Positions 28,725 to 37,009 of a stretch of DNA of 37,913 nt are shown piece by piece. Position 1 is the stretch's first letter; each line of letters opens with the position of its first letter. The notes under the pieces are model-generated. The model was not told the origin of the DNA, ran no database searches, and worked only from the letters and a program-made list of their open reading frames with translations. The translations under genes were made by a program, and so were the position numbers. The DNA comes from Candidatus Scatomonas merdavium (GTDB lineage Bacteria > Bacillota > Clostridia > Lachnospirales > Lachnospiraceae), in assembly GCA_018716575.1 (NCBI GenBank), contig DVJR01000040.1, positions 1-37,913 on the forward strand, in the 5' to 3' direction.

Positions 28725-28758
28725 TTTTCTCTCCTGCCTGTATGCTTCCCTTTCCTCG

Positions 28759-28818
28759 AAAAAAGGATGTCTCAAAACAAAAACAGCTTTTGCCAAGCGT
28801 TATTGTTTCGAGGCATCC
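28759..28818 (-). terminator. Rho-independent terminator after the BMC gene pair
   Basis: Minus strand GGATGCCTCGAAACAA ... TTGTTTTGAGACATCC followed by TTTTTT. Confidence 0.8.
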
Positions 28819-28840
28819 CTTCTCCTGTTATAACCGGTTA

Positions 28841-29128
28841 TCAGGCTTCCGCCTTGCCGGCCCATTCTTCCACGATTCTGGCCGTCTCCTCAGAGGGGCT
28901 GGATATTACCGCAGCCGCTACAATTTCGCAGGGCGGATTTCCCTGTACGCTTTCCACTGCGGCCTTCACCGCGGCAACATCTCCGCTCATGAATACGGTC
29001 GCGTGGCCTCCGCACCTGGTATGCCATGTCTCATACCGCACATCGGCAGCCTTCAGCATCCGGTCTACCACCAGAATTGCGTTGGCGCTGCCTACTACTT
29101 CTACCAATCCAAATGCGCCATATCTCAT
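28841..29128 (-). CDS. Bacterial microcompartment (BMC-domain) shell protein 1
   Basis: RYGAFGLVEVVGSANAILVVDRMLKAADV...GDVAAVKAAVESV; single BMC domain, 95 aa. Confidence 0.88.
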   Translation of the reverse strand: MRYGAFGLVEVVGSANAILVVDRMLKAADVRYETWHTRCGGHATVFMSGDVAAVKAAVESVQGNPPCEIVAAAVISSPSEETARIVEEWAGKAEA

Positions 29129-29143
29129 CTTTCCATCCTCCCG

Positions 29144-29443
29144 CTACTTCCGAATGGTCATTTCCAGACCGATCTCCGTATCCTCTGACGGCGAAGCAAT
29201 AATATTCTGAGAAATTACCTTCGCCATGGGCTTCGCAGCTGCCAGAGCCGCTTCCATGGCAGCGCGGACATCGGAAACGCTGCCGCGCATTTTCACACAG
29301 GCGCCGCTTTTCAGACGGTTTCTCTCCACGCCCTGAATCCTGATATTTGCCGTTTTGGCTGCCGCGTCCAAAGCGACAAAACAGGCCACCAGATTGTCCA
29401 GCTCAAACATTCCCAGAGCCATTCCCTTGTATTTTTCTGACAT
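29144..29443 (-). CDS. Bacterial microcompartment (BMC-domain) shell protein 2
   Basis: ALGMFELDNLVACFVALDAAAKTANIRIQGVERN...GSVSDVRAAMEAALAAA; start at MSEKYKGMALG with GGAGGATATT upstream. Confidence 0.88.
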   Translation of the reverse strand: MSEKYKGMALGMFELDNLVACFVALDAAAKTANIRIQGVERNRLKSGACVKMRGSVSDVRAAMEAALAAAKPMAKVISQNIIASPSEDTEIGLEMTIRK

Positions 29444-29486
29444 AATATCCTCCCACGCAGCGGAACTCCCGCCGTTCGCTTTATTT

Positions 29487-29515
29487 ATTATACTATTGCA
29501 GTCCGAAAAACACAA
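29487..29515 (-). promoter_or_regulatory. Putative sigma-A promoter of the BMC gene pair
   Basis: Minus strand TTGTGT-17 nt-TATAAT in the ptsI-BMC gap. Confidence 0.6.
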
Positions 29516-29527: not shown

Positions 29528-31168
29528 TTAGTTTTTATCTTGATTTTTATCTGTCCCTGCCAGGCTCGCCCGAATCTGCTTCCGCACGGGAAGAATCATG
29601 GACGGGGACACGGAAAGCTCGTCGATGCCCATCTGCAGAAATTTTTCTGTCAGTGCGGTGTCCGCTCCCAGTTCCCCGCAGATGCCCACCCAGCAGCCGC
29701 CTCTGTGGCCGTTCTCCGCCACCGTAGCGATCAGCCGCAGCACTGCCTCATGGTGTGGGTTATAAAACTCGTCAAGCCGGCTGTTCTGCCGGTCCATAGC
29801 CAGGGTATACTGGGTCAGGTCGTTGGTCCCGATACTAAAAAAATCCACTTCCCCTGCCAGCAAATCGCTGATCACAGCTGCCGCCGGCGTCTCTATCATA
29901 ATGCCCTGCTCCACCTTCCCGTGCGGAAGCCCCTGCTCTGTCAGCTCTCTCTCCACTTCTTGCGCTATGCGGCGGACCTTTTTTACCTCTTCTACGGAAG
30001 TAATCATCGGATACATCACTGCTATATTTCCAAAAGCGCTGGCCCGGTAAATAGCCCTCAGCTGACTTTTGAAGATCTCCGGTCTGGTCAGGCAGATTCG
30101 GATCGCCCGATACCCCAGAGCCGGATTTTCTTCCTTATCCAGCTTCAGATAAGCCGCCTGCTTATCCGCGCCGATATCCAGCGTCCGAATTATCACCTTC
30201 TTACCCGCCATCATCTCCGCCACAGACTTATAGATCTGAAACTGCTCATCCTCAGTGGGCAGGCTCTCTCTTCCCAGATAGATGAATTCGCTGCGGAACA
30301 ATCCGATACCGCCTCCGTCATTGGACAGCACACTCCCTACATCCGCCAGATTTCCGATATTTGCATAGAGCCGAATCTCTTTGCCGTCCTTCGTCCGATC
30401 CGGTTTCCCCTTCAGCTCCTGCAGAAGCTCCCGGGCCTGCCGATCCTTCGCCTGCCGCTCTTCCATCTCCTGCAGAATTGCTTCATCCGGATCCAGAATC
30501 AGAAAGCCGTTATGGCCGTCTACAACCGCCGTATGTCCATCCCACTCCTGTGTCACCGGTATGCCGGTCAGTGCCGGGATATTCATGGTCCGAGCCAGAA
30601 TAGCCGTATGAGAATTTGCCGAACCCTGCCTGGTCACAAAAGCCAGCACCTTATTTTTGTCCATCTGCACCGTCTCGCTGGGCATCAGATCATCCGCCGC
30701 AACAATGACCGGCTCGTCAAAAGCTCTTTTCTGCTCCCGCCCTGCAAGAACCGCAATCACCCGTTCCGCTATATCTTTCATATCCGCAGACCGGGCCCGG
30801 AAATATTCATCCTCCATCTGCGAAAACATCGCGGCAAAATTTTCCCCTGTAACGGCAGCTGCGTATTCCGCATTTACCTGCTGGGTCTTAATCAGATTCC
30901 GGACAGAATCGTTAAAATCATCGTCCTCCAGAAGCATGGCATGTACCTCGAAAATAGCCGCGTTCTCCTCACCTACCTTCTGAACCGCCGTATCGTAGAG
31001 ACTGTTCAGCTGTGCTGCCGCTGCATCCCTGGCGCGTTCATAGCGCGCAATTTCTGCTTCTGCGTCCGCCACTTTATATCGCTTGATGATCTCTTCTTTT
31101 TTTCCATAAAACAAAATTTTTCCGATAGCGACTCCCTGGAATATGGATTTTCCCAAATGCTTCTCCAT
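29528..31168 (-). CDS. ptsI: Phosphoenolpyruvate-protein phosphotransferase (PTS Enzyme I)
   Basis: Phospho-His domain TRQGSANSHTAILARTMNIPAL; PEP-binding GIGLFRSEFIYLGR, IMIETPAAAVISDLLAGEVDFFSIGTNDLTQYTLAMDR. Confidence 0.97.
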   Translation of the reverse strand: MEKHLGKSIFQGVAIGKILFYGKKEEIIKRYKVADAEAEIARYERARDAAAAQLNSLYDTAVQKVGEENAAIFEVHAMLLEDDDFNDSVRNLIKTQQVNAEYAAAVTGENFAAMFSQMEDEYFRARSADMKDIAERVIAVLAGREQKRAFDEPVIVAADDLMPSETVQMDKNKVLAFVTRQGSANSHTAILARTMNIPALTGIPVTQEWDGHTAVVDGHNGFLILDPDEAILQEMEERQAKDRQARELLQELKGKPDRTKDGKEIRLYANIGNLADVGSVLSNDGGGIGLFRSEFIYLGRESLPTEDEQFQIYKSVAEMMAGKKVIIRTLDIGADKQAAYLKLDKEENPALGYRAIRICLTRPEIFKSQLRAIYRASAFGNIAVMYPMITSVEEVKKVRRIAQEVERELTEQGLPHGKVEQGIMIETPAAAVISDLLAGEVDFFSIGTNDLTQYTLAMDRQNSRLDEFYNPHHEAVLRLIATVAENGHRGGCWVGICGELGADTALTEKFLQMGIDELSVSPSMILPVRKQIRASLAGTDKNQDKN

Positions 31169-31264
31169 GGCGTTTTACCTCCCTGAACGAACAAAACCAG
31201 CCATCCATTCCGGAGCCGGCTCTGCCTTCTCCGGAAATCCTTTCATCTGACCAGTATTGGCAAT

Positions 31265-32665
31265 TCAGCGCGTTTTCATGCCTGTATCCATATTCTTCAG
31301 CTGCCATCCAAAGCCTTCCATTCCCGGACAGCGCAGCTTCACTTCCAGCTGCCGGTTCCCACTGTAATCCGGATAAAATCTGGCGGTAAAGACTGTCTCG
31401 CCTCCGTTCAGATAGAGCTCCGCCATGCTGGTATCAATCAGCAGCCGGATTTTCCGGCATTTTCCCACACGGGCGCGCCGCACACGCCTGCCGCGGCCCC
31501 ACTGCTCTGAAAGCTCAAGGCACACCGTTCCGTCTCCTCCGGAAATCCGCAATCCCTCTCCTATCATGATCTGCCAGGGATATTCGTCTTCTCCGCTTTT
31601 TCGCAGCATTACCTCTCCGCTTCCGTCCTCCAGCACAAAGCTGTTCTCCCCTGTAAGTGCCGTCGCACCGTATCGCAGGTCTTCCAGCTCCCGGACCGGC
31701 TTCTGCAGGACTTTTCCGTTTTCTTCAACGATCTCCCTGGGGATGGTGAGGGCATGCTGCCAGCCCCGTTCCGCGGTAGGATTCTCATAGGGCGCATCCG
31801 GCATGCCTGCCCAGCCTATCAGCAAACGCCTGCCCCTGTCATCTGCAAAGGTCTGCGGCGCGTAAAAATCAAACCCATAATCCCATTCCCGGAACTCTCC
31901 CAGCTGCGGCGCGTCTTCCAGGATGCCTGTCACGGTGAAATATCCGGACTGATAGACATTCTGATACCGGTATTCTTCCGGCCCGAGTCCCTGGGGGCAG
32001 ACAGACAGCAGCGCATATTTCCCAACCCTGAAGTAATCCGGGCATTCCCACATATAGCCGAAGGCTTCTCCGGTGGTAATACACTTCAGAAATTCCCAGC
32101 GCTTCAGGTCAGAACTCCTGTAGAGCAGCACCGCTCCTTTTTCCTCCTTCAGCCTGGCTCCCAGAACCATGTAATAGTTCCCGTTTTCTTTCCACACCTT
32201 TGGATCCCGGACATGCCGCGTGCAGTCGGAAGGATAGTCTGCCGTCCGCAGCAGCAGTTCCTTGGTTCCGAAATGGAGCCCGTCGTTGCTGACGATCCGG
32301 ATCGTGTTGCTCTCCCGCCCGTCATGAATGTAATCATACTCTCCGGGAAGCCGGATATTTCCTGTGTAGAAAAGCTGCAGCTTACCGTCTTCCACCAGGG
32401 CGCTGCCGGAGTAGCTTCCGTTCCGGTCCAGTTCATTCTGTTCAAAGGGAATTCCCTCAAACCGCAGTTTCGTCAGGCCGGGGCCGGCATAGTGTCCCCA
32501 CAGCCTCGGTGTCTTTCCGGTTCCCCGGGGATCTTCCGGCTGATACTGGAAAAATATATGATACTGTCCCCGAAACTGGCACAGGCCATTGGGATCATTC
32601 AGCCACCCCTCCGGCGGCATCAGATGAAATTTCAGTCGCCATCCGTCCGGCTGCCTTCCTACCAT
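31265..32665 (-). CDS. scrB: Glycoside hydrolase family 32, sucrose-6-phosphate hydrolase-like
   Basis: FHLMPPEGWLNDPNGLCQFRGQYHIFFQYQP, RHVRDPKVW, MWECPDYFRV; 7-nt overlap with the PTS gene. Confidence 0.9.
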   Translation of the reverse strand: MVGRQPDGWRLKFHLMPPEGWLNDPNGLCQFRGQYHIFFQYQPEDPRGTGKTPRLWGHYAGPGLTKLRFEGIPFEQNELDRNGSYSGSALVEDGKLQLFYTGNIRLPGEYDYIHDGRESNTIRIVSNDGLHFGTKELLLRTADYPSDCTRHVRDPKVWKENGNYYMVLGARLKEEKGAVLLYRSSDLKRWEFLKCITTGEAFGYMWECPDYFRVGKYALLSVCPQGLGPEEYRYQNVYQSGYFTVTGILEDAPQLGEFREWDYGFDFYAPQTFADDRGRRLLIGWAGMPDAPYENPTAERGWQHALTIPREIVEENGKVLQKPVRELEDLRYGATALTGENSFVLEDGSGEVMLRKSGEDEYPWQIMIGEGLRISGGDGTVCLELSEQWGRGRRVRRARVGKCRKIRLLIDTSMAELYLNGGETVFTARFYPDYSGNRQLEVKLRCPGMEGFGWQLKNMDTGMKTR

Positions 32666-34572
32666 ATCTGCAATACCTCCTCGCCCGCATGCACCGTTCC
32701 GGTTTTCACAGGCTCTACATGTTCAAAATCATCACTGTTGCTTACAATTACGGGCGTCGTAATATCATACCCCGCCTTCTGAATTGCCGGAATATCAAAC
32801 TCCAGCATCAGCTGTCCCTTCTTTACGGTATCTCCCGCCGAAACATAAGCCGTATAATGCTGACCGTTCAGTTCCACCGTATTGATTCCCACATGAATCA
32901 GAAGTTCCAGCCCGTCCTCTGACATCAGCCCTATGGCATGCTTTGTCTCAAATACCGCGCCCACCGTTCCGTCAAACGGTGCTGTTATCCTGCCTTCCGA
33001 GGGCACCACCGCCACTCCTTTTCCCAGAATTTCTCCCGCGAAGGTAGCGTCATTGACTTCCGAAAGGGGAATAATCTCGCCGGAAGCCGGGGCGCAGACG
33101 ATCTTTCTGGCTGCAGAGGTCTGCTTCACTTCCGCCGGTACATCACTTTCAGGCGCTGCGACTCCTGTCTCGTCAAGACTGCCACTGACATTTTGCTCCG
33201 CCGGTGCCTCCTTATACATGATCCAGGAAAGAGCAAAGGCTACTGCAGCGGATACAGCCATCACCAGCGCATAGGTACCGATAAACTGAGTGGTAATCAG
33301 GAAACCGAAAACGCCCGTAATTCCGTAAGCCGTCGCCCCCACTCCAAACAGCCCTGCTATCAGCCCGCCGCAGGCGCCGCCGATACAGCCCGCCACAAAC
33401 GGCCTCATGTAGCGGATATTCACGCCGAAAATCGCCGGTTCTGTAATTCCCAGAAATGCTGAAAGGGATGCGGGAAGCGCCATGGATTTAGTCTTTTTAT
33501 TCTTTGTTTTTAAGGCCAGCGCCAGAGCTGCTGCTCCCTGTCCCACATTGGCCGCCGTAGCGATGGGCATCCAGATGTTCAGGCCGCCTGCGCTCAGCAG
33601 TCCTGCTTCAATGGCGTTATACATATGATGAACGCCGGCAACCACGGTAATGGCATAGACTCCTCCGATAATCAGCCCTCCCAGCCCGAACGGGAGACCG
33701 ATCAGCATCCTTGCTCCGCTCAGCACCCAGTTTTCCACGGTCGAAAATACGGGGCCGATTACTGTCAGCGTCACATATCCGGTAACCATAACCGTAACCA
33801 GAGGCGTCACGAACAGGTCGATAATCTCCGGGACAATTTTATGCAGTTTTTTCTCCAGAAAGCTCATAAGCCATACGGCGATAATCACCGGAATAACGTG
33901 TCCCTGATATCCCACCAGGTTAATGTCATAGAGGCCGAACCAGGCGGATGCCGTCGGTATCTCCGCCGCGTTCATTCCTGCCACAGACCATGCGTTGATC
34001 AGATCGGGATGAATCATAATCATGCCGATGACCGCTCCAAGAAACAGATTGCCTCCAAAAGCCTTTGCTGCGCTGACGGCAATCAGCACCGGCAGGAATG
34101 TAAAAGCCGTATTGCTGAACAGATGAAAAATCTGATACGTCCCGGATTCTGCCATAGACGGCCAGAGGTTGCAAAGTCCCTCCAGAAGGCCCATCAGAAG
34201 GCCGCTGGCCACGATAGCCGGAATAATGGGAACAAATATGTCTCCCAGCGTCTTGATTGCCCGCAGGAACAGATTCTGCTTTGACGCTGCCGCCTGCTTG
34301 ACATCCTCTTTGCTTCCCGCCTGAATACCTGCCATTCTGACAAACTCATCAAAAACCTTGTTGACCGTTCCTGTGCCGAAAATAATCTGAATCTGTCCGG
34401 CGGCTTCAAATACGCCCTTTACACCTTCCACTTCCTCCAACGCCGCCTTGCTGCACCTGGAATTGTCCGCAATCACCAGCCTGAGCCTTGTGGCGCAGTG
34501 CGCTGCCGATACGATGTTGGAAGCGCCGCCGATGCTCTCCAGCACGCCCTTTGCTGCATTCCTGTAATCCAT
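32659..34572 (-). CDS. PTS EIIBCA, glucose/sucrose/beta-glucoside superfamily, probably sucrose-specific
   Basis: IIB AAHCATRLRLVIAD, IIC multi-TM domain, IIA-Glc-like IVCAPASGEIIPLSEV...LLIHVGINTVELNG; coupled to a GH32 gene. Confidence 0.9.
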   Translation of the reverse strand: MDYRNAAKGVLESIGGASNIVSAAHCATRLRLVIADNSRCSKAALEEVEGVKGVFEAAGQIQIIFGTGTVNKVFDEFVRMAGIQAGSKEDVKQAAASKQNLFLRAIKTLGDIFVPIIPAIVASGLLMGLLEGLCNLWPSMAESGTYQIFHLFSNTAFTFLPVLIAVSAAKAFGGNLFLGAVIGMIMIHPDLINAWSVAGMNAAEIPTASAWFGLYDINLVGYQGHVIPVIIAVWLMSFLEKKLHKIVPEIIDLFVTPLVTVMVTGYVTLTVIGPVFSTVENWVLSGARMLIGLPFGLGGLIIGGVYAITVVAGVHHMYNAIEAGLLSAGGLNIWMPIATAANVGQGAAALALALKTKNKKTKSMALPASLSAFLGITEPAIFGVNIRYMRPFVAGCIGGACGGLIAGLFGVGATAYGITGVFGFLITTQFIGTYALVMAVSAAVAFALSWIMYKEAPAEQNVSGSLDETGVAAPESDVPAEVKQTSAARKIVCAPASGEIIPLSEVNDATFAGEILGKGVAVVPSEGRITAPFDGTVGAVFETKHAIGLMSEDGLELLIHVGINTVELNGQHYTAYVSAGDTVKKGQLMLEFDIPAIQKAGYDITTPVIVSNSDDFEHVEPVKTGTVHAGEEVLQIW

Positions 34573-34602
34573 GTTCCTTCTCCTTCCTGATTATGATATT
34601 GT

Positions 34603-34667
34603 TTCCACATGAAGTTATTCCCATTTTCCGTGCCTTTTACTGTTTTTTTCGTTCTATTCATGTGGAA
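34603..34667 (-). repeat. Inverted repeat in the EIIBCA leader (11-bp arms)
   Basis: Arms TTCCACATGAA (34603-34613) and TTCATGTGGAA (34657-34667), perfect complements separated by 43 nt. Confidence 0.85.
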
Positions 34668-34681
34668 TCTCTGTTATTTTT

Positions 34682-34697
34682 ATGAGATCGTTCTCAT
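34682..34697 (-). promoter_or_regulatory. Putative LacI-family operator of the sucrose PTS operon
   Basis: Minus strand ATGAGAACGATCTCAT, 14/16 palindromic with central CG, about 11 nt downstream of the -10. Confidence 0.72.
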
Positions 34698-34708
34698 ATG
34701 TTGGCTTT

Positions 34709-34737
34709 ATTATAGTGCATTTCTTCTCATTTGTAAA
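34709..34737 (-). promoter_or_regulatory. Promoter of the sucrose PTS operon
   Basis: Minus strand TTTACA-17 nt-TATAAT. Confidence 0.75.
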
Positions 34738-34762
34738 TCCTGAAGCAGCTGAATTTTTTCAT

Positions 34763-34810
34763 AAAAAACGGAGGATTTTTTTAGCAATATGCTGAAATCC
34801 TCCGTTTTTT
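34763..34810. terminator. Rho-independent terminator of the LacI-type regulator gene
   Basis: AAAAAACGGAGGATTT ... AAATCCTCCGTTTTTT stem-loop. Confidence 0.85.
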
Positions 34811-34822
34811 CTCCTCCGGGCC

Positions 34823-35836
34823 TCACCGGGCCGTCGCCAGGGCTTCTCTTTCCTTCCGTATGGAATCGTTCTCTATTATTTTGTATCCCATTTTGATTTC
34901 TTTTGCCACATTTTCTTCACTGTCCAGAAGATTCAGAAGCAGACGGGCAGCCTCTTCCCCGCTGGTCTTATAATAATAATGCACCGTACAGAGGGACGGC
35001 TGGACAATCCGTGCTTTTTCTGTATCACCGATCCCCGCCACCTGCACCTCGCCCGGTACGTCAATGCCCCGGTCGCGCAGATACAGCATTGCTCCGATGG
35101 CAATATTATCCGTGGCGCAGAACAGAGAATCTGGCACGTTCTCTCTCTCAAAAATCTGCCGGGCCGCTTCATAGCCTGAATCCATCCGGAATTTTGCCTC
35201 CGCTGTCCACTCAGGCACCAGTTTCCTTCCGGCCGCCCGCAAAGCATCCTCAAATCCCTTTCGCCGCATCCGGCCGGCCGCCTGATCCCGCTGTGTTACC
35301 CCGATACAGCCGATCCTGCTGCCTGCCCGCAGCAGAAGCTCTGTCAGCTCCCTGGCCGCACGGTAGTCATCGTAATAAACGCAGGAGCACTGGCTTACCT
35401 GCTGTCCCAGAACTACAATCGGCAGCCGCATATTCTTTATGGCCTTCCGGTGCTCGCCCGTCAGTATTGTTCCGATGAGAATCACGCCATCCACCTGATT
35501 GTTTGACGCAAACATATTTAAATATTTGATCTCTTCTTTTTCATTGTTGTCCGTATTGGCCAGCAGCAATTCATAGCCGCTCCGTGACAGTACGCCGCTG
35601 ATTCCTGCCACCATCCGGCTGATGGAATCCGAATTAATTTTGGGAATTACCACTCCGATCAGCCTGGTCTTTTTTGTCCTGAGAATCTGCGCCTGAGCCG
35701 AAGGCCGATATCCTGTTTCTTCTATCACGCGCCGTATTCTCTCGCTTTTCTCCGCGCTTACATAACCGCTGTTCAGATATCGGGATACTGTTGCCCGGGA
35801 AACTCCGGCCATCCGGGCAATTTCATTAATTGTCAC
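34823..35836 (-). CDS. LacI-family transcriptional regulator (probable sucrose operon repressor)
   Basis: VTINEIARMAGVSRATVSRYLNSGYVSAEKSERIRRVIEETGYRP HTH; periplasmic-binding-like domain. GTG start at 35836 preceded by AGGAGG; the ORF-track extension to 36370 is spurious. Confidence 0.92.
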   Translation of the reverse strand: MTINEIARMAGVSRATVSRYLNSGYVSAEKSERIRRVIEETGYRPSAQAQILRTKKTRLIGVVIPKINSDSISRMVAGISGVLSRSGYELLLANTDNNEKEEIKYLNMFASNNQVDGVILIGTILTGEHRKAIKNMRLPIVVLGQQVSQCSCVYYDDYRAARELTELLLRAGSRIGCIGVTQRDQAAGRMRRKGFEDALRAAGRKLVPEWTAEAKFRMDSGYEAARQIFERENVPDSLFCATDNIAIGAMLYLRDRGIDVPGEVQVAGIGDTEKARIVQPSLCTVHYYYKTSGEEAARLLLNLLDSEENVAKEIKMGYKIIENDSIRKEREALATAR

Positions 35837-35947
35837 TGCTCTTCCTCCTGTCGCCGGTACGTTTTCCGGCTTTTCTGCTATTACTATAGACCCTGACAGC
35901 CTGTTTGTCCACAGGTCAATTTTATTTTTCCCAAACCGGCACCGCAG

Positions 35948-35976
35948 TTGCTTTTTCTCTCTTCCCTGCCTATAAT
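35948..35976 (+). promoter_or_regulatory. Putative promoter for the divergent sugar kinase gene
   Basis: TTGCTT-17 nt-TATAAT upstream of 36026. Confidence 0.6.
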
Positions 35977-36025
35977 AAGACCAGGAAACCAAAACCTTCT
36001 GCTTTGGAAGAACGAGGAGAGGCTT

Positions 36026-37009
36026 ATGAAAAATACCACGTTTATTCTCATAGGCGCGGCCATCCTGGATGTGCTGGCCCGGCCGGTCGGCGCAGATGTA
36101 TTCCAGACCGGTTCCGTCCCCGCCGACACGCTCACGGTTCACACCGGCGGCGATGCCATGAACGAGGCCTGCGCCCTGGCAGCTCTCGGGGCGCAGGTGC
36201 GCCTTGTCACGCGCCTGGGCAATGATACTGCTGCAGACATGATTCTGGCCCGGTGCGGCAGTCTGGGGATAGATACTTCCTGCATAAAACGCAGTACTTC
36301 TGTCCCGACCGGCGTCAACGTCGTGCTGGTGGGGCCGGACGGGGAGCGCCACTTCATCACGTCGCCTCACGGAACGCTGCGAAAGTTTTATCCGGAAGAT
36401 ATCTCACCGGAAGCCCTTCAGGGCGGGAAATTTCTCTGCTTTGCCAGCATTTTTGTAGCCCCGCCCTTCACCGCCGGCGCCTGCGCGGCTCTTTTCCGCC
36501 AGGCGCGGGAGAATGGCCTGACCGTTTGCGCCGATATGACAAAGCGCAAAAACGGCGAAACTCTCGACGATATGCGGGAGTGTCTCTCCTGCCTGGATTA
36601 TCTGTTTCCCAACTATGAGGAAGCCTCTCTGCTGACCGGCAAAGCCGACTGGGACGACATTGCGGACGCTTTTCTGGACTGCGGCGTAGGCCATGTTATT
36701 CTGAAGGCCGGCTCCCGCGGCTGTTTCATCAAGACCCGCTCTGAGCGCTTCTGGATTCCCGCTGTCTCCGGCATATCATGCATCGATACCACCGGAGCCG
36801 GCGACACCTTTGCCGCCTGCTTTCTCTATGCCCTCGACAGGGGATTGTCCCTGGCGGACTGCGGCCGCTTTGCCAACGCCGGCGCTTCCTTCTGCATAGA
36901 AACCGTAGGCGCAGCCGGAGCCGGAAACGATCCTGACGCCATTTTGAAACGCGCCGGACTGGCCGGCAGATATCCGCCGGCCAGTCTGCAGCATAAACCG
37001 GTTGTATGA
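36026..37009 (+). CDS. PfkB-family carbohydrate kinase
   Basis: FILIGAAILDVLARPV, HTGGDAMNEACALAALGA, IDTTGAGDTFAACFLYAL; RBS GAGGAGAGG before ATG 36026. Confidence 0.92.
   Translation: MKNTTFILIGAAILDVLARPVGADVFQTGSVPADTLTVHTGGDAMNEACALAALGAQVRLVTRLGNDTAADMILARCGSLGIDTSCIKRSTSVPTGVNVVLVGPDGERHFITSPHGTLRKFYPEDISPEALQGGKFLCFASIFVAPPFTAGACAALFRQARENGLTVCADMTKRKNGETLDDMRECLSCLDYLFPNYEEASLLTGKADWDDIADAFLDCGVGHVILKAGSRGCFIKTRSERFWIPAVSGISCIDTTGAGDTFAACFLYALDRGLSLADCGRFANAGASFCIETVGAAGAGNDPDAILKRAGLAGRYPPASLQHKPVV

Follow-up and report, generated by a model that had tools for sequence, protein, structure and literature searches.

What does a pair of BMC shell genes do when no vertex gene stands beside it? 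The question is raised by a 37,913-nt stretch of DNA from Candidatus Scatomonas merdavium, referred to here as the window, which holds two PF00936 genes (BMC1 and BMC2) and no others. The initial annotation described adjacent single-domain BMC genes with a 15-nt gap, a promoter-like site upstream, a strong terminator downstream, and no vertex protein in the window, and each of these points was borne out by domain scores, fold models, coordinates, and folding (Table 1). Each protein is a single PF00936 domain, scoring 62.6 bits for BMC1 and 64.3 bits for BMC2, or ∼38-40 bits above the Pfam cut-off of 24.5. The AlphaFold (AF2) model of BMC1 had a pLDDT of 88.7 and its Foldseek matches were BMC-H hexamers, and that of BMC2 had a pLDDT of 92.3 with PduA as its top PDB matches. 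Both models resemble the hexamer subunits of PduA, EutM, and Cut/Cmc when compared with the PDB, and both proteins are predicted by this modeling to fold as BMC-H. EutN/CcmL (PF03319) and further BMC genes were absent from the window, and whole-genome searches placed them only on contig C119. An Rfam scan of the window returned nothing but a tRNA.

Table 1. Features of the two-gene unit and genes of the BMC locus on contig C119
Feature	Position	Strand	Description and evidence
BMC1 (BMC-H, 99 aa)	29144-29443 (29147..29443 also given)	minus	PF00936 match; AF2 model and Foldseek; ERNRLKSGACVKMRG
BMC2 (BMC-H, 95 aa)	28841-29128 (28844..29128 also given)	minus	PF00936 match; AF2 model and PDB matches
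Promoter-like site TTGTGT-17-TATAAT	29487..29515	minus	predicted; 43 nt before BMC1 start; recurrence in orthologues
Intrinsic terminator-like hairpin and T-run	28758..28825	minus	closes the two-gene unit; -37.5 kcal/mol, z -4.73
C119: EutS-like, EutP, class II aldolase, AldDH, Zn-ADH, four BMC-H (a-d)			ORF reading; aldolase and AldDH by Pfam
C119: PduL, EutN, PduS, PduT-like BMC-T, DeoR regulator, Fe-ADH			ORF reading

The promoter-like site occurs once in the window versus 0.01 occurrences expected, for a pattern that was picked after the site had been seen. It is missed by a generic promoter scan because its -35 element agrees with the consensus at only three of six positions. Support for the site comes from its recurrence across orthologues, since the sites of individual orthologues are often no better than shuffles; a TTGNNN-17/18-TATAAT-like site (with TATAAT or TATACT as the -10) lies ∼40-80 nt upstream in most of them, where the flanks are unrelated. 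A hairpin and T-run, as judged by eye, also follow BMC2 in many orthologues. The ptsI gene lies 84 nt upstream of the pair and seems to stand at the end of a sucrose-type PTS operon (window 29528-36370; LacI regulator, PTS IIBCA, GH32, ptsI), an unusual location for PTS enzyme I. Transcriptional read-through from this operon into the pair is possible because folding of the interval between ptsI and the pair revealed no terminator that beats shuffles.

The main locus on C119 and the origin of the pair

A whole-genome search for PF00936 and PF03319 recovered nine BMC domains together with a single vertex protein, the only EutN of this MAG, and all of these except the pair itself lie on contig C119. 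The C119 genes other than those for the aldolase and AldDH were named on the basis of ORF reading and their high identity to the genes of relatives. They include the markers of GRM5, namely a class II aldolase, a lactaldehyde reductase-type Zn-ADH, PduS, PduT, and a DeoR regulator, and the gene set is that described for this L-fucose/L-rhamnose compartment (PMC4207490, PMC6325248). The locus resembles the GRM5 loci of Clostridium phytofermentans and Roseburia inulinivorans in its class II aldolase, AldDH, PduL, PduS, PduT, EutN, DeoR, and BMC-H set (PMC4207490, PMC6325248), but differs from them in that searches of this 79.7%-complete MAG did not recover the glycyl-radical 1,2-propanediol dehydratase, the defining enzyme of GRM5. 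That enzyme was found in 25 of 28 pair-bearing genomes; being nearly universal in both genome sets, it does not discriminate with respect to the pair. On gene content, the C119 locus is a complete BMC locus of the GRM5 fucose/rhamnose type. A PHP-type phosphoesterase-like gene, identified by reading rather than by family search, adjoins the main locus here (L010:187-1116) and the satellite in Schaedlerella (L069:8581-9354), and a functional link between the two loci through this gene is possible.

To place the pair relative to its paralogues, trees were built with the main-locus shell proteins. BMC1 grouped with main-locus BMC-Ha in the first tree. A second tree, extended by BMC-H, PduT, and GrpU sequences that belong to other BMC types within this family, joined BMC1 to BMC-Ha with support of 100/98 and BMC2 to BMC-Hc with support of 100/100, and it nested BMC2 inside the BMC-Hc group (100/99). 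With a short alignment of 94 columns and a bootstrap that fell short of full convergence, the deeper branching order is unsure, as is the nesting of BMC1 inside the BMC-Ha group. The main locus is ordered a-b-c-d and the satellite a-c, with order kept. These comparisons indicate that the pair descends from, or shares an origin with, BMC-Ha and BMC-Hc of the GRM5-type locus, and we conclude from them that the pair arose by an ancient duplication of GRM5 shell genes and was relocated to a locus of its own.

Pore-loop changes and the BMC2 cysteine

The fixed differences between satellite and main-locus proteins (positions at least 90% fixed) cluster in the pore loop, which accounts for 10 of 11 alignment columns in BMC1 and three of seven in BMC2. 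BMC1 is missing an eight-residue pore-loop insert (main-locus consensus ...ADALPVPL...). BMC2 carries the pore motif Cys39-Gly-Gly-His42 in 28 of 28 proteins, whereas the main-locus paralogues have Leu/Met-Gly-Gly-Arg in 44 of 44; the Cys39/His42 combination was seen in none of the 44. Directly after this stretch, BMC2 has a one-residue deletion relative to the main-locus paralogues. Cys39 aligns without gaps to Cys38, the pore cysteine of the N-terminal PduT domain, and on this alignment it would face the pore.

PduT homologues ligate a [4Fe-4S] cluster via a conserved pore cysteine, and GRM5 loci reportedly encode PduS and PduT, with GrpU present in 0 of 57 (PMC6325248). With its invariant Cys39, BMC2 is like both GrpU (a BMC-H protein with a Cys pore and Fe-S) and PduT (an Fe-S BMC-T protein), the cysteine occupying the same position of the pore loop. 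The motifs differ, however: C-G-G-H in BMC2 versus G-X-C-P-Q-N/H in GrpU and C-P/S/A-G-K/R/S in PduT, and BMC2 groups with GRM5 BMC-Hc. An assignment of BMC2 as GrpU was rejected on the basis of its motif, which is C-G-G-H in all 28 proteins. A GrpU-like BMC-H with an NCPQN pore motif is encoded at L115:8946-9254, in another BMC locus of a relative.

Co-occurrence, genomic neighborhoods, and alternative explanations

We detected the pair in 29 genomes, namely this one and 28 more. Of the latter, 27 fall within Lachnospiraceae or were assigned close to it, most being of Blautia and Schaedlerella types, and one comes from another family; most of the orthologue genomes are MAGs. A scan of the GTDB collection located BMC2 orthologues in Lachnospiraceae, chiefly Blautia and Schaedlerella, with one record labeled only Clostridiales. 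The orthologues share 58-77% identity and the next matches fall at or below 45%, which sets them apart as a clear separate class. BMC1 adjoins BMC2 in every orthologous locus whose contig reaches both genes. In the family sample, 8 of 200 genomes, this one included, carry the pair. The EutN vertex protein is present in 29 of 29 pair-bearing genomes (57 of 200 as background in the family sample), so that no genome among those 29 has the pair without it, and the GRM5-type aldolase is present in all 28 that were searched (background 65 of 200). The genomes searched for both proteins comprise the 8 of the family sample and 20 from the GTDB scan. In the 29th (G296), AldDH, PduL, EutN, and shell genes are present and the contig ends before the aldolase. 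For the eight sampled genomes P was ∼3e-5 for EutN and ∼9e-5 for the aldolase, in statistics that ignore relatedness. The pair is dispensable because ∼38 of the 46 family-sample genomes with a close aldolase homologue have no pair.

The neighbors of the pair differ between genomes while the two-gene unit is kept. The distance from the pair to the aldolase main locus is ∼5 kb in both L069 and L071. In G036 the pair has a PduB-type BMC-T gene (L043:2039-2764; 350.8 bits, cut-off 310) ∼0.85 kb away; such a gene was sought at all pair loci and seen in this genome only, and the stretch of the G036 main locus that was examined contained none. One group of loci has XdhC and a MATE transporter near the pair. 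Of the genes near the pair in the window, only Spo0A and GlgA recur close to it elsewhere, in L063 and L065, where they lie on the opposite side, which hints at local rearrangement. Homologues of ptsI, GH32, and VWA/MoxR were near the pair in none of the relatives examined. We thus reject a functional link of the pair to ptsI or to VWA/MoxR. The initial annotation had raised conservation of a ptsI-BMC-BMC neighborhood, and this does not hold, with ptsI, VWA, and MoxR never recurring beside the orthologues; the setting is, by this comparison, incidental to this genome. Comparison of these loci shows that the pair persists as a two-gene unit at changing genomic positions, and it was seen only together with the main locus.

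The neighborhood in Blautia, where the pair lies inside or beside a purine-degradation cluster, suggests another reading, in which the two proteins form a shell-like assembly for purine or uric-acid degradation (selenium-dependent molybdenum hydroxylase, YgeW/YgeX/YgeY, carbamate kinase). Such a cluster encloses the pair at seven or eight loci of the Blautia group, the cluster genes being those for the xanthine dehydrogenase Fe-S subunit, YqeB, YqeC, carbamate kinase, YgeW, YgeY, and diaminopropionate ammonia-lyase, and an XdhC-family maturation gene adjoins the pair in G104, G148, and G113. An anaerobic purine/selenium-molybdenum hydroxylase cluster surrounds the pair in L055-L059, L067, and L077 (∼5-17 kb; Blautia). 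Unrelated genes adjoin the pair at most other loci, however, and the Blautia arrangement is limited to that lineage. The genome studied here (a 79.7%-complete MAG) lacks a YgeW orthologue and has just a 29% carbamoyltransferase match, all pair-bearing Blautia genomes have the GRM5 aldolase and EutN, and BMC1 and BMC2 group with GRM5 shell proteins in the tree. A purine-degradation compartment is therefore unlikely, given the lineage-limited neighborhood and the missing YgeW orthologue, though the setting in Blautia may leave room for another role of the pair.

The initial annotation had put forward two possibilities, a satellite locus acting with a distant BMC and a non-canonical, self-contained assembly, and only the former is upheld, and strongly, by the complete GRM5-type locus with paralogous shell genes in this and the other pair-bearing genomes. 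The initial annotation had itself named a complete BMC operon elsewhere, with close paralogues of the pair among its shell genes, as grounds against its reading, and the C119 locus is such an operon. A self-contained, enzyme-free shell would have the two BMC-H proteins form sheets, tubes, or a scaffold of their own, independently of any BMC. BMC-H proteins alone can make sheets and tubes in vitro, and the pair is flanked by a promoter-like site and a terminator of its own. A closed shell nevertheless requires a vertex protein, which is encoded solely on the main locus, and the vertex gene and main locus accompany the pair in 29 of 29 genomes. We reject a stand-alone shell without a core, to which we give very little credence, on the basis of the complete locus elsewhere in the genome.

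It is more doubtful still that the pair is a swap set, replacing BMC-Ha and BMC-Hc in a second BMC of different composition for another condition. The one-to-one correspondence with main-locus a and c in the tree and the apparently separate transcription of the pair would suit such an exchange, but there is no linked second set of core enzymes or vertex gene, and the genome has a single EutN. Least probable of all is that the pair consists of functionless relic duplicates of GRM5 shell genes, as its absence from most aldolase carriers of the family sample could suggest, because the intact frames, the ∼60-76% identity across genera, the pore motifs invariant in 28 of 28, the retained two-gene linkage, and the good ribosome-binding sites point to purifying selection.

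Proposed role of the pair

It is highly probable, in our view, that the pair serves as a satellite shell locus to the GRM5-type metabolosome (fucose/rhamnose, class II aldolase) encoded elsewhere in this genome, supplying hexamers with remodeled pores. Satellite BMC loci were defined in Axen 2014 (PMC4207490) and Sutter 2021 (PMC8217296), and tuning of shell permeability is their proposed general role. The pair is like them in gene content, with contiguous PF00936 genes only, distant from a main locus in the same genome that encodes BMC-H and BMC-P (on C119, EutN, BMC-H a-d, PduT, and enzymes); unlike generic satellite loci, it has identified parent genes (GRM5 a and c), a two-gene organization, and defined pore changes. 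It also resembles the CcmK3/CcmK4 satellite of beta-carboxysomes, in which adjacent BMC-H paralogues far from the main locus are thought to tune permeability (PMC8217296), but the organelle and phylum are different, and genomes with the GRM5 main locus may have or lack the pair. The GRM5 descriptions consulted (PMC4207490, PMC6325248) make no mention of a satellite, nor did the BMC articles searched yield a description of a GRM5 satellite pair; supplementary catalogues may list it.

As a satellite, the pair probably fine-tunes the wall of the main organelle rather than building a new one. The BMC1 and BMC2 hexamers would be inserted into the main shell as minor facet tiles, under transcriptional control separate from that of the main locus, and their altered central pores would change what crosses the shell. 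BMC1 would contribute a pore from which the long loop is gone, and BMC2 one at which a Cys and a His from each of six subunits are placed. An unproven corollary, drawn by analogy with PduT and GrpU, is that the BMC2 pore may bind a metal or an Fe-S cluster and act as an electron relay or redox gate. More tentatively, and with somewhat less than even confidence, we suggest that BMC2 could be the founder of a new redox- or metal-binding BMC-H class with a Cys-Gly-Gly-His pore. Such a protein would have arisen from a standard GRM5 hexamer and, expressed at a separate locus, would provide the fucose/rhamnose organelle with a gate for electrons or metabolites under its own regulation, taking the place of GrpU, which is missing from GRM5 loci.

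With this assignment an orphan shell pair becomes traceable to its source, as shell genes that were duplicated and now form a satellite equipped with a promoter-like site, with change focused in the pores. BMC2 becomes a new candidate for an Fe-S or metal pore in glycyl-radical-type compartments, and culturable gut Blautia and Schaedlerella species allow a direct test of whether satellite shell proteins tune permeability, as has been proposed.
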